Positions 59,496 through 64,000 of a stretch of 64,000 nt of DNA are shown here, in pieces. A program made the translations under genes and the position numbers. Under the pieces are notes generated by a model. The model did no database searches, was not told the origin of the DNA, and was given only the letters and a program-made list of their open reading frames with translations. This stretch comes from Bombilactobacillus bombi (GTDB taxonomy: Bacteria; Bacillota; Bacilli; Lactobacillales; Lactobacillaceae): the NCBI RefSeq assembly GCF_003522965.1, contig NZ_CP031513.1, positions 558,001-622,000 of the forward strand, in the 5' to 3' direction. The number at the start of each line of letters is the position of its first letter. Positions within the stretch are counted from its first letter, which is position 1.

Positions 59496-60410
59496 ATTAC
59501 TACTTTTGCTTTTAAAAATAATGAAAATTCAGATCGACTTGATAAAATAATCTTGAAGTTTCATCCTGAATATACCCGTGCTCAAATTCAAAAATGGATT
59601 AAAGCTAATCAAGTGTGTGTTAATCAGCAAATTATCAATAAAACTGGTTATCGTATTTTAACTAATGATTTAATTGAAGTTACAGTAACAAAACGCGAAC
59701 CATTACATGCAACTGCACAAAAGTTGCCTTTAAATATTATTTATGAAGATGATGATGTATTAGTAGTTAACAAACCGCAAGGGATGGTCGTTCATCCCTC
59801 GGCAGGGCATCCAGATGGGACTTTAGTTAATGCAATTTTGTATCATACACAGATACAGAGTAAGGATATAATTCGACCAGGCATTGTTCATCGGATTGAT
59901 AAAGATACATCCGGTTTATTAATGATTGCTAAATCAGAATTAGCCCAAGAATCACTGAGTGCACAAATTAAAGCTAAAACCAATTTACGTGATTATTTAG
60001 CAATCGTGCATAATCCTTTTGAGGAAAAGGAGGGCACTATTGAAGCTCCGATTGGTCGTGATCCCAACGAACGTAAACGCCAAGCTGTGATTGCCACTGG
60101 AAAAAGTGCAATTACTCACTTTCAAGTACAGGAAAATTTTACCAAGTTTGCTTTAGTCAAATGTCGTTTAGAAACTGGACGGACTCATCAAATTCGGGTA
60201 CATTTACAATATATCGGTCATCCTGTTGCTGGAGATCCCTTATACGGTCCTCGACACACTTTGGCTGGAGCAGGGCAGTTCTTACATGCGCAAACATTAG
60301 GTTTTCGCCATCCACGCACTGGACAATGGTTAGAATTTCATGTCGACCCACCACAAATATTTCAAACAACCCTAAATAATTTACGGACTAATGAGAAAGG
60401 AAACTTGTAA
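59496..60410 (+). CDS. rluD: 23S rRNA pseudouridine synthase, RluD family, probable ATT start
   Basis: The 304-residue enzyme has an N-terminal S4 domain with SDRLDKII and a catalytic domain with [15 protein letters not shown] (Asp nucleophile), near 130, and [13 protein letters not shown] near 220. An ATG, GTG or TTG upstream of the S4 domain is absent: the frame runs to a TGA at 59475, and the only good initiation point is ATT 59496, seven bases after GAGGAG. The TTG at 59553 would delete the RLDK part of S4. pyrR overlaps the stop (TAATG). Confidence 0.85.
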
Positions 60411-60934
60411 TGAACAAGGAAATTGTTGACGATAAAACAATGAAGCGGACATTAACCCGCATTACTTACGAGATTATTGAAAAAAATAAAGGTAACCAGA
60501 ATTTAGTCTTAATTGGAATAAAAACAAGAGGAGCTTATTTAGCTAAAAGAATTAAATCTCGACTTTATCAACTAGAAGATATTGATGTACCTCAATTTGA
60601 TCTGGATGTTACTAATTTTAGAGATGATCACCCTGTCGAAAAGCAAGCCGAAAACCCCCAGTTTAAGGCAGTCGATGTTAATGGCAAACATATTGTTTTA
60701 GTGGATGATGTACTGTACACCGGCAGAACTATTCGGGCAGCTTTGGACGCTATTATGAGTATTGGCCGTCCCAGTAAAATTTCTTTAGCCGTTTTGGTAG
60801 ATCGAGGCCATCGAGAGTTGCCAATTCGTGCCGATTATGTAGGGAAGAATATTCCTACCTCCCATAAAGAAACCATCAAAGTTTCAATGGCAGAAATTGA
60901 TGATGAAGATAAAATTGAGATTTTAGCTAACTAA
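60410..60934 (+). CDS. pyrR: PyrR bifunctional regulator/uracil phosphoribosyltransferase
   Basis: The 174-residue protein has the PRPP-binding motif [17 protein letters not shown] near 105 and the flexible-loop VTNFRDDH. PyrR binds pyr mRNA in the presence of UMP or PRPP and attenuates pyr operons; it also has weak UPRTase activity. AAAGGAAA precedes ATG, which overlaps the rluD stop. It is followed by the degenerate carAB pair. No PyrR-binding loop or antiterminator is visible in the tightly packed upstream genes. Confidence 0.93.
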
Positions 60935-60939
60935 TAATT

Positions 60940-62019
60940 ATGAAAAAATATTTAATTTTAGAAGATGGCACCGTTTTTCGTGGTGACAGTGTGGGTGCTA
61001 CTTCAATATCAACAGGGGAATTAGTGGTTACTAATAATATCAGTGGTTTAGAACAAACTATTACTGACCAGACCTATAATGATCAAATTATAGTTTTTAT
61101 AGCGCCACTAATTAATACTATTGGAATGAACCGTGATGACTATGAGTCAATTGCTTTAAGTTGTAAGGGTGTAATTTTTAATAGTATCCCAGTCAATCAA
61201 ATGAACGCAAATAACCCTAGTTCTTTGGCACATTTTTTAGAAAAGCGCCATTTACCTGGTATTACCAATATCAATGTTCAACGCTTGGCAGCTCATATTA
61301 AGAAGCATGGTTCTATGAAAGCTAGTATTATGGATACAGATGATGAACATGCGATTGACCAAATTCGAGCACTCGTTATTCCACGTGACCGAGTCAAAAC
61401 TGTTTCTACCAAGCAACCATATCCTAATCCTAATGTAGGATTTAAAATTGCTGTCATTGATTTAGGATTAAAATTTTCAATTTTGCGCCAATTATCTATT
61501 CGAAAATGTGATTCAGTTATTTTGCCCTATAATACTAGTGCAGAAGACATTATGGAATTAGATCCAGATGCTGTTTTATTCACAAGTGGGCCAGGAGATC
61601 CACATGAAATCCCGGAAACAATTACAACTTGTCAACAATTAGAAGGTAAAATACCCATTCTGGGTATTGGTTTAGGACATTTGGTGGTGGCCCTTGCAAA
61701 CGGTGCTGAAATTGAGCGCATGCGTTATGGCCATCACGGCTCTAATGTACCTACTTTAGAAATTGCTACTGAAAATATTGAATTTTCTAATCATAATCAT
61801 AATTATGCTGTTGCGCATTCTAATATGGCAAGAACTAACTTTTTTATTACTTATCGCTGTGTCAACGATAATGTGATTGAAGGTTTACGCCATCGCAGCG
61901 ATCCAACGATGACTGTCCAATTTCAACCAGAAGCTGCTCCAGGAACTCATGATGCGTTGTACGTTTTTGATGAATTTATAGAAATGATTAACTCGTTTAA
62001 GCAAGGAAAACAACTATGA
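60940..62019 (+). CDS. CarA-like protein with lost glutaminase catalytic residues
   Basis: The 359-residue protein follows the small subunit of carbamoyl-phosphate synthase over its full length (LEDGTVFRGDSVGA, KHGSMKASIMDTDDE, PYNTSAEDIMELDPDAVLF, AAPGTHDALYVFDEF). In the glutaminase domain the nucleophile motif GICLGHQ is GIGLGHL, so the Cys is Gly244, and the FHPEAAPG motif is FQPEAAPG, so the catalytic His is Gln329; Glu331 stays. It should not hydrolyse glutamine. The frame is intact, AT-rich like its neighbours, and overlaps the carB-like start (ATGA). It is linked to pyrR, so a regulatory or structural role is possible. Confidence 0.85.
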   Translation: MKKYLILEDGTVFRGDSVGATSISTGELVVTNNISGLEQTITDQTYNDQIIVFIAPLINTIGMNRDDYESIALSCKGVIFNSIPVNQMNANNPSSLAHFLEKRHLPGITNINVQRLAAHIKKHGSMKASIMDTDDEHAIDQIRALVIPRDRVKTVSTKQPYPNPNVGFKIAVIDLGLKFSILRQLSIRKCDSVILPYNTSAEDIMELDPDAVLFTSGPGDPHEIPETITTCQQLEGKIPILGIGLGHLVVALANGAEIERMRYGHHGSNVPTLEIATENIEFSNHNHNYAVAHSNMARTNFFITYRCVNDNVIEGLRHRSDPTMTVQFQPEAAPGTHDALYVFDEFIEMINSFKQGKQL

Positions 62020-64000
62020 CCAAAAATGTCTTAATAATTGGAACCACCACTGGATTAGTATCTGGCGAAAAACTAGATCAAGAAAAAGCTATTTATGCCA
62101 CATTGGAAACTTTTCACAAAGAAGGCTATAAAACAGTTTTATTAACAGAAAATCGTGAACTATTTCCGGAATTTCATACTTTGGCTACTCATATAGTATT
62201 TAGAGAAATTAATCTTAGTAATTTAAAAACAGTTATTTTACAATATCAAATTGATTTAGTCTTTCCAACATACACAGCCAACAGTAATTTACATCTTTTT
62301 CGAAATCTCATCAAACAGGACTTCTTTAAAAAGCATCAAGTGAAATTGCTAAATTTAAATCAACAAAATTTAAATTTAGCAATTAGTCACAAAACGCTTA
62401 CTAGTTATCTTCAAAATAAAGGATTTAGAATAATTGAACATGAGCTAATTAGTAATCTGGATGAGGCAATGGCTTTTGTAGATAAACACCACTTTCCGGT
62501 AATTATCCGGGTAAACAATAAAGAACAAAGGACTTATTGGAATAGTATCAATACTAAAGCTGAACTAGCCAAATTGTTTGCAACTACTACTGCTGTGGAA
62601 GGTTATGAAATCGAGCGTAGTATTAATAATTTCAAAGAAGTTACTATGACCTCTATTCGAGATCGTTTTGATAATGCAGCTTTGATCTATTCGTCTGAAG
62701 ATATTGATCCAATTGGAATCCATTCCAATGACTCTATTAGCGTTACTCCAGTGTTTTCTATTGCTAATTCTATGTTTCAGCGCTTACGTGATGCCATTTT
62801 AAAATTAACACGTATACTGAAAATTGTAGGTGTTTGTACTTTTCATCTAGCTGTGGATGAACAAACTAATTCTTTTTATGTATTGGAAATTTCACCTTTA
62901 TTTCAAAGCAAAATTTTACCAATTATTGCTAGTACTGGGTATCCGTTATTTGAAGTGATTTGTCAAGTCAGTCTAGGTAAAAGATTACAAGAAGTAGTTT
63001 CTTTAGATGGTTCCAAATTTAATGCTGCTGTAGAATTGACTCCTAACCATATTACAGCAAGATTTCCCATTTGGCAGACGCACAATTTATCTAAACTCAA
63101 TAACAATTTGGGACCTCATAAATCTTCTTTAGGAGCCATTATTGTTAATGGAAATAATTTAGAGACTATTATTATGAAGGGATTTCAAATACTTGATTTA
63201 ACAGATGATATTTTTATTAATCATCCCGATGCTAATTTGAGTGACGAACAAATTGAATCGGCCTTGTTTCATACTAATATTCGCAGAATTATTGCGGTTT
63301 GTGAAGCGTTAAATAGAGGATTTGATGTTCACGAAATATACAGTTTCACCAAATATAATCATGTGTTTTTGGAATCTTTAAAACACTTATTGGATCTTGC
63401 ACGTTTATTAGAATATCAAAAGGGTAATTTAGAAGTTTTATCAACATGTAAGCGTTATGGCTTTTCTGATTTTTTGATTGCTCATTTATGGAAAATTACG
63501 ACTGAGCAAGTACAAAAAATCACTGCGCAATTAAGTCTGCAGCCAATTGCGCTACCAGCACCGAGTTCCTTTTCACTAGATCAAGGCACTGTAAATAATT
63601 ACTATACGGTCTTTTTGGATGATCCACTACCGTCATTACCAACTTATCAAATTATCATTAACGACTATCCTAATTCAGATATGATTTCTAATTATGAAAT
63701 GACGATTTTAGCGCAACAGTTGATTCACCAATTTCAAATGGACGGTTATTTAGTTGCTGTACATGGTAGTTTATTGAGTAAAATTGACTCTAATACGATA
63801 AGTGATTATTTTATGGATTCCATATATAACAAGTCATATTTATATAGTGATCAAAATCGATTAAACATCACCATTAATACTCTAGAAAATCAGCATCTCA
63901 GTTATCCGTTAGCCATTCATAATTTCAATTACCAGCAAGAAATTTTTAAAAATCAAAATGTAATGACAGAAATTGCTTTTATCCAAGATGCTTCTCAACA
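62016..64000 (+). CDS. CarB-like protein with degenerate ATP-grasp site (runs off the window)
   Basis: An open frame of 661 codons without a stop resembles the large subunit of carbamoyl-phosphate synthase: MTKNVLIIGTTTG, SEDIDPIGIHSNDSIS (residues 227-242), FYVLEISPLFQSK and STGYPLFEV. The canonical GxGPIxIGQ loop is IGTTTGLVSG, the MGGQTALN motif is YTANSNLH, the RPSFxxGG loop is RVNNKEQR, and the metal-binding ExNPR is EISPL (291-295). These changes should abolish ATP and Mg binding in the first synthetase domain. The rest lies outside the window. Whether it makes a complex with the CarA-like protein is unknown. Confidence 0.8.
   Translation, partial: MTKNVLIIGTTTGLVSGEKLDQEKAIYATLETFHKEGYKTVLLTENRELFPEFHTLATHIVFREINLSNLKTVILQYQIDLVFPTYTANSNLHLFRNLIKQDFFKKHQVKLLNLNQQNLNLAISHKTLTSYLQNKGFRIIEHELISNLDEAMAFVDKHHFPVIIRVNNKEQRTYWNSINTKAELAKLFATTTAVEGYEIERSINNFKEVTMTSIRDRFDNAALIYSSEDIDPIGIHSNDSISVTPVFSIANSMFQRLRDAILKLTRILKIVGVCTFHLAVDEQTNSFYVLEISPLFQSKILPIIASTGYPLFEVICQVSLGKRLQEVVSLDGSKFNAAVELTPNHITARFPIWQTHNLSKLNNNLGPHKSSLGAIIVNGNNLETIIMKGFQILDLTDDIFINHPDANLSDEQIESALFHTNIRRIIAVCEALNRGFDVHEIYSFTKYNHVFLESLKHLLDLARLLEYQKGNLEVLSTCKRYGFSDFLIAHLWKITTEQVQKITAQLSLQPIALPAPSSFSLDQGTVNNYYTVFLDDPLPSLPTYQIIINDYPNSDMISNYEMTILAQQLIHQFQMDGYLVAVHGSLLSKIDSNTISDYFMDSIYNKSYLYSDQNRLNITINTLENQHLSYPLAIHNFNYQQEIFKNQNVMTEIAFIQDASQ

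Follow-up and report, generated by a model that had tools for sequence, protein, structure and literature searches.

Vertebrate CPS1 is a carbamoyl-phosphate synthase (CPS) that depends on ammonia, has a dead glutaminase and has an allosteric activator. The E. coli CPS is composed of a small and a large subunit, CarA and CarB (PDB 1JDB and 1C30). Here, we analyse a pair of CPS-like genes, carA* and carB* (the asterisk marks pseudo-CPS versions of genes and proteins), which follow pyrR at the right end of a 64,000-nucleotide stretch of the Bombilactobacillus bombi genome (contig NZ_CP031513.1, positions 558,001 to 622,000; hereafter the window). The pair resembles the E. coli enzyme in its two subunits, its gene order, the alignment of CarA* over its whole length and the fold of CarB*, but all three reaction sites are altered and, in the main family, the C-terminal half of the large subunit is shortened and lacks the MGS domain. 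With CPS1 it shares the loss of the glutaminase nucleophile, and CPS1 is also a structural match to a CarB* model from L. plantarum; CPS1, however, has both kinase sites, whereas the pseudo-CPS has lost at least its carbamate-kinase site. As a dead paralogue that is kept by strong selection and adjoins the regulator of its pathway, the pair also resembles pseudoenzyme regulators such as PII-like proteins and other dead paralogues. To our knowledge, no two-subunit pseudo-CPS is known.

The original PyrR2 paper is said to have found that deletion of pyrR2 made growth depend on high CO2. According to a passage on the two L. plantarum paralogues, PyrR1 and PyrR2 take part in control by inorganic carbon and pyrimidines, PyrR2 being the one that regulates the pyr operon in response to inorganic carbon, and that passage does not mention a linked CPS-like pair (PMC3582564). 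A table in a second publication lists pyrR2 as lp_1782, with a value of −2.10 in one strain (PMC7911632). In our analysis, L. plantarum has two PyrR proteins, identical at 113 of 172 positions (66%), one encoded in the pyr operon and the other heading the pseudo-CPS block. The L. plantarum pseudo-CPS is the pyrR2 locus, and the window pyrR is the positional counterpart of pyrR2, with the difference that the window's genus (coded g1; other genera are coded likewise) has a single PyrR, beside the pseudo-CPS. In the open-access literature, no inactive CPS pair adjoining pyrR was found described; most subscription papers, including the L. plantarum pyr papers, lay outside this coverage and may well name second CPS gene copies.

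Our main finding is that carA*-carB* is, as judged by its sequence and the selection acting on it, a non-catalytic descendant of CPS. We assign a probability of roughly 0.4 to the reading that this pseudo-CPS senses bicarbonate and acts on the PyrR circuit, in which complex formation, the ligand and the action on PyrR are all inferred. The block at the window end has the order lspA-rluD-pyrR-carA*-carB*, and the window stops inside carB*:

59553 to 60410, plus strand: rluD, open reading frame (ORF) for a pseudouridine synthase; left neighbour kept upstream of pyrR and carA* in related loci, marking the locus
60410 to 60934, plus strand: pyrR, 174 aa; passes NF003548 (271 against 218 bits); the only PyrR found in the genome, the PyrR identity of other Pribosyltran matches being judged only via relatives G002, G003 and G006, which have no second PyrR
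60940 to 62019, plus strand: carA*, 359 aa, pseudo small subunit; catalytic Cys replaced by Gly244 and His by Gln329
62016 to 64000 in the window (first 661 aa), plus strand: carB*, pseudo large subunit, 797 aa; stop at would-be position 64409
62715 to 62735, plus strand: GIHSNDS segment, CarB* residues 234 to 240; the portion of the carboxyphosphate site that is retained, corresponding to H243, D246 and S247 of E. coli

Lesions in the two subunits

An earlier note, made from the letters of the window alone, had described two intact, overlapping CPS-like genes, and the frames of pyrR, carA* and carB* are indeed open, all on the plus strand, with neighbours abutting or overlapping by a few bases. 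Taken from the same genome past the window edge, carB* remains open to a total of 797 aa, without internal stops, and is followed by a 573-aa gene on the other strand. The complete large subunit has 797 rather than about 1070 aa. The replacements in CarA*, Gly244 within GIGLGHL and Gln329 within FQPE, are exactly as had been stated.

The residue counts refer to 115 distinct CarA* and 119 distinct CarB* sequences from 131 loci; distinct sequences were counted because some genomes had been entered twice, under a genome handle and as a named locus, and the loci are not all independent. E. coli was excluded from the canonical counts and row L077 from the comparison of invariant positions, and one lesion alignment carried L196, a row without sequence, as a gap. 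Cys269 is replaced by Gly and His353 is lost in all 115 CarA*, while Gln273 has become Glu in 99 and Leu in 13, and Ser47 has become Ile in 93. A canonical set of 26 CarA has Cys, Gln and Ser in 26 of 26 each and His in 25. Gly was also found at the Cys position in all of 20 more loci from 13 group codes, and sequence stretches of further genera shared both the block and the Cys-to-Gly replacement. Among 73 positions invariant in canonical CarA, S47I, C269G and Q273E are the only nearly fixed replacements in the main clade. We take these three to be glutamine-site residues; they are 3 of 3 within the 8 of 73 positions of that site (p = 0.0009). Since only these residues were swapped for other nearly fixed ones, the glutamine pocket of CarA* is, on this pattern, remodelled and then frozen rather than randomly decayed. 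Despite the missing Cys and His, the window CarA* exceeds the NCBIfam equivalog cut-offs for the small subunit (NF009475, 383 against 221 bits; TIGR01368, 330 against 307 bits). The same applies to other loci (10 of 10 and 9 of 10, respectively), bringing the accepted CarA*, window included, to 11 of 11 and 10 of 11.

CarB* is about 790–860 aa long across the family. The window copy scores 246.7 bits against TIGR01369 (cut-off 1027), in an alignment limited to residues 3–511. The motif losses reported for it in the earlier note, including EISPL, which begins at residue 291, were confirmed: its carboxyphosphate half lacks the glycine loop and N301/R303, its carbamate-kinase half is shortened and there is no MGS-like domain. 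At R129, R169, G175/G176, E215 and N236 it carries H, R, Q/R, E and D, and at H243, Q285, E299, N301 and R303 it carries H, H, E, S and L. All ten carbamate-kinase positions show a gap or a change, and five residues align to the MGS domain. Across the 119 CarB*, G176 is kept in 4, R303 in 9, E299 in 15 and N301 in 20, and the kept positions are E215 (113), N/D236 (119), D238 (107), H243 (117), D246 (119) and S247 (119), whose carboxyphosphate and potassium-site roles are those we presume for CarB. Kept positions concentrate at 235–252 (5 of 11 against 10 of 110, p = 0.004), an interval chosen post hoc. The main forms cover 134–173 of the 259 positions of the second ATP-grasp region and 2–27 of the 138 positions of the MGS domain, and the lid is missing. 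Of the forms checked, only that of g21, described below, has a complete set of carboxyphosphate-site residues.

According to structure models, the overall CPS large-subunit fold is kept in CarB*. An AlphaFold2 model of L. plantarum CarB* reached a mean pLDDT of 83 and a pTM of 0.87, and its top Foldseek matches were the E. coli and human CPS large chains, with a query TM of 0.87–0.90 for E. coli. The part of CarB* inside the window (661 aa) gave a pLDDT of 73.5, a pTM of 0.75 and a TM of 0.77–0.78 to E. coli CPS, its top Foldseek matches again being CPS large chains.

Distribution, selection and history of the locus

In the window's genus, full-length carB* orthologues (48–73% identity) were present in all seven genomes sampled besides the window's own, and all seven carA* encode GIGLGH or GVGLGH together with FQPE. 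As these genomes share the full-length carB* and the same CarA lesions, chance and sequencing error are excluded as the source of the lesions; the stop in G006 is the natural end of its 789-aa carB* frame. For counting the family, a full-length carB* profile was dropped, canonical CarB scoring equally high, in favour of a profile restricted to the C-terminal part specific to carB*. This profile matched 251 of 397 Lactobacillaceae genomes, in 23 of 40 genera; in a control with 10 weaker genomes, all matches lay in frames of 800–848 aa, and canonical CarB scored at most 48.8 bits. An order-wide profile search matched 42 of 395 genomes, all Lactobacillaceae, the profile having been built from Lactobacillaceae and their share of the 395 not being given.

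A scan of named genomes ranked L. plantarum EGD-AQ4 first, and the best 80 of 232 relatives span Lactiplantibacillus, Levilactobacillus, Secundilactobacillus, Lentilactobacillus, Furfurilactobacillus, Paucilactobacillus, Periweissella, Apilactobacillus and Pediococcus. Within these 80, pyrR lies beside carA* in 77, the three exceptions being Paucilactobacillus. Overall, pyrR adjoins carA* in 120 of 128 loci, some of which represent the same genome twice, and 116 of 120 PyrR of pseudo-CPS loci have the phosphoribosyl pyrophosphate (PRPP)-binding motif. The rluD-pyrR-carA*-carB* block belongs to a deep family of pseudo-CPS. In one Apilactobacillus-type genome (G309, L063:2330-2960), pyrR is frameshifted beside intact carA* and carB*, possibly through a sequencing error. 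In a plasmid search for the named relatives, a single record reached 80% query coverage.

The ratio of nonsynonymous to synonymous substitution rates (dN/dS) was calculated for 26 pairs by the Nei-Gojobori method using our own script; in several pairs dS was undefined. In the 7 of 26 pairs with a dS of 0.2–1 for both genes, dN/dS was 0–0.016 for carA* and 0.009–0.026 for carB*, resembling rluD and pyrR. Within the window's genus, where dS (1.5–2.0) is near saturation, the values were 0.044–0.060 for carA* and 0.097–0.116 for carB*, compared with 0.091–0.167 for rluD. Both genes are under strong purifying selection, and these ratios, far from the value near 1 named in the earlier note as a sign of decay, refute recent decay of the main family. 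That note's expectation of lactobacillar orthologues with the same lesions, and its view of subunits non-catalytic as CPS yet kept, possibly for sensing beside pyrR, agree with the shared lesions and selection seen here, as far as sequence can tell. The family further extends to at least 23 genera, to a L. plantarum copy behind pyrR2, to the pyr-operon site and to full-length intermediates, all beyond the note's view. CarA* is much better conserved than CarB* (median distance 0.70 versus 1.48), which diverges rapidly between genera (24% identity, window versus L. plantarum). The distances of the two subunits co-vary, as expected of a complex (mirror-tree partial r 0.87 given rluD).

The view that best fits the pseudo-CPS is that of an old pyr-operon CPS left in place, because the block sits where some other genera have a whole pyr operon and full-length forms occur there. 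Two g22 genomes without pseudo-CPS (G118 and G063) carry the whole pyrR-pyrB-pyrC-carA-carB operon after rluD, and a third (G027, L271) has the order rluD-pyrR-(435-aa ORF)-carA*-carB* (643 aa)-two ORFs, with C269G in CarA*; the 435-aa ORF is of permease length, and the two ORFs after carB* look like pyrF/pyrE from the start of their sequences. In g10 (G015, L267:3972-8254), the order is rluD-pyrR-(443-aa ORF)-carA*-carB*. Its CarB has 1059 aa and is 58% identical to the canonical protein; CarA* carries C269G and H353D, CarB* carries Q285H/E299A and Q829K/E841A at metal ligands of both halves, and 4 of 10 checked carbamate-kinase residues are changed. Two g21 genomes (G062 and G092; L264 and L265) show pyrR-permease-carA*-carB, with C269G and H353Y in CarA* and a CarB of 1056–1066 aa, which in both genomes keeps 11 of 11 checked carboxyphosphate-site residues and has lost 10 of 10 carbamate-kinase residues. 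Residue by residue, the bicarbonate-phosphorylating site of g21 is complete, and its glutaminase and carbamate-kinase sites are predicted to be dead. These forms, of which those of g10 and g21 are full-length and early, lie outside the 251 profile-matched genomes. In g33 (G038, L270), CarA keeps the Cys and has Leu at His353, and the 1066-aa CarB is changed at key residues of both halves; this may be an independent loss at apparently the same site, and looks like an ongoing one. In G027 and in the g10, g21 and g33 forms, pyrR and carA are separated by a permease gene, Pfam-tested in one g21 copy only. A quick tree of CarA needed three changes to pseudo-CarA; one origin, with 55 rows held together and the long-branch row L077 left out, was not rejected (p-AU 0.089, approximately unbiased test).

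PyrR RNA elements and canonical CPS in the same genomes

In all seven g1 genomes, the best PyrR RNA element precedes a pyrimidine-type permease gene (PF00860 in four, PF02133 in two) or pyrF-pyrE (one); two of the seven score above the Rfam gathering score. The element before pyrF-pyrE is kept in G003, though this genome has no canonical CarB match. Weaker elements lie just before pyrR-carA*-carB* in G006 and at pyrB in G001 (28 bits). Before the pseudo operon itself, an Rfam search (E ≤ 0.05) found a PyrR element in only one of eight loci (L048), in addition to that of G006 from the g1 scan, and none was found near the window pyrR at E ≤ 0.1. A weak match of L064 to a staphylococcal small RNA family was taken as chance.

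The B. bombi genome also contains a separate intact pyrB-pyrC-carA-carB-pyrD cluster (about 1,076.5–1,083.9 kb of contig C1), the second carAB that the earlier note had suggested looking for. Canonical CarB (TIGR01369) was above cut-off in 315 of 397 genomes. At E ≤ 1e-280 (n = 397), 194 genomes had both forms, 57 the pseudo-CPS only, 128 canonical CarB only and 18 neither, absence counts that are limited by the genes draft genomes may miss. In g15 (Levilactobacillus), 22 of 24 pseudo-CPS genomes are without canonical CarB, and three of the seven sampled genomes of the window's genus (G002, G003 and G006) gave no canonical CarB match and kept pseudo-CPS and PyrR. The complete L. brevis CD0817 has a single CarA, the pseudo one; L. 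plantarum EGD-AQ4 has three.

Candidate function and alternatives

The ancestral pyr operon, placed between rluD and the NFACT gene, would have comprised, in whatever order, pyrR, a uracil permease gene, pyrB, pyrC, carA, carB and pyrF/pyrE. Its biosynthetic genes would then have left the site in many Lactobacillaceae while carAB remained, losing glutaminase, carbamate-kinase and finally carboxyphosphate chemistry before being held by strong purifying selection. Most likely, CarA* and CarB* continue to assemble into a CPS-like complex to which a small ligand binds, and the signal would be passed to the PyrR pyrimidine circuit, that is, to attenuation of uptake and synthesis genes. Bicarbonate, with or without a nucleotide, is the likeliest ligand, because the carboxyphosphate pocket lasts longest in the large subunit, because g21 has this site complete and the other two dead, and because the published inorganic-carbon regulator of the pyr operon in L. 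plantarum is PyrR2, whose gene heads the block. The fuller scenario, in which an enzyme complex was converted in place into a bicarbonate sensor that uses its former carboxyphosphate pocket to tune PyrR attenuation, with g10 and g21 as living intermediates showing the order of events, is one we put forward only tentatively.

Several observations weigh against a bicarbonate sensor acting on PyrR. In the 57 of 251 pseudo-CPS genomes without a canonical CarB match, a PyrR circuit would have no CPS whose use of bicarbonate it could steer. The metal ligands are missing from most CarB*, Lys replaces R169 in 91 of 119 and Asp replaces N236 in 60 of 119, so that it is uncertain whether forms other than that of g21 bind ATP and bicarbonate. 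The C-terminal half is better kept in g10 than in g21, and the order of losses is therefore not uniform. Moreover, 8 of 128 loci have no intact adjacent pyrR (five loci from three Paucilactobacillus genomes, two g6 genomes and the frameshifted copy), and PyrR was found elsewhere in all five of the six genomes concerned that were searched. Finally, the mirror-tree analysis gave no special PyrR signal (partial r 0.37 for PyrR-CarA* and 0.35 for PyrR-CarB*, given rluD); rluD-CarA* reached 0.62 given PyrR, above both, and the analysis is not supportive of PyrR coupling.

It is quite possible, though on balance doubtful, that the pseudo-CPS is a pyrimidine regulator with another ligand (uridine monophosphate (UMP), PRPP or an amino acid in the CarA* pocket) or another target, such as a permease or another enzyme. 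In its favour, CarA* is the better conserved subunit and its glutamine pocket is rewritten and frozen, suggesting that the small subunit does the work; the block persists in genomes without canonical CPS; and a permease gene is interposed in the g10, g21, g22 and g33 forms. However, the best-kept patch of CarB* is the carboxyphosphate site, and inorganic carbon is the only role given to the linked regulator in the published passage. Given the complete N-terminal site of g21 and the versatility of ATP-grasp folds, the pair might instead have retained or gained a different catalysis, such as hydrolysing ATP in a bicarbonate-dependent manner or supplying carboxyphosphate. This is unlikely, as the main clade and g1 lack the glycine loop and metal ligands, g10 carries E299A and Q285H, and no catalytic site is shared family-wide.

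The earlier note had also considered a complex with a functional copy elsewhere. Subunits that modulate canonical CPS or serve as decoys for it, in mixed CarA*/CarB or CarA/CarB* complexes, would fit the 194 of 251 pseudo-CPS genomes, the window's included, that also have canonical CarB; the 57 without it, the Levilactobacillus genomes and L. brevis CD0817, with only a pseudo CarA, rule out partnership as a general role and make it improbable otherwise. A decaying relic or recent pseudogene would account for the lost catalytic residues, the fast divergence of carB* between genera and the apparent ongoing loss in G038, but it is very hard to reconcile with a dN/dS of about 0.01 in close pairs, frames open across at least 23 genera and frozen pocket replacements. 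We give still less credence to an ammonia-dependent CPS with only its glutaminase dead: loss of the glutaminase Cys parallels CPS1, yet carbamate-kinase residues are lost in every residue-checked form, including g10 (4 of 10) and g21 (10 of 10), and both lid and MGS domain are missing from the main forms.

The widely annotated carAB 'enzyme' of many lactobacilli is thus probably a sensor or regulatory protein and, if so, the annotations are wrong. As CarA* passes equivalog cut-offs, metabolic models may wrongly credit carbamoyl-phosphate synthesis, with 57 of 397 genomes having pseudo-CPS and no canonical CarB match. Within this one locus, natural forms grade from an enzyme into a non-enzyme. 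A bicarbonate-sensing pseudo-CPS would be a candidate sensor, amenable to deletion and purification, for PyrR2 and for the CO2-dependence long known in L. plantarum and, if true, would explain how PyrR2 responds to CO2.

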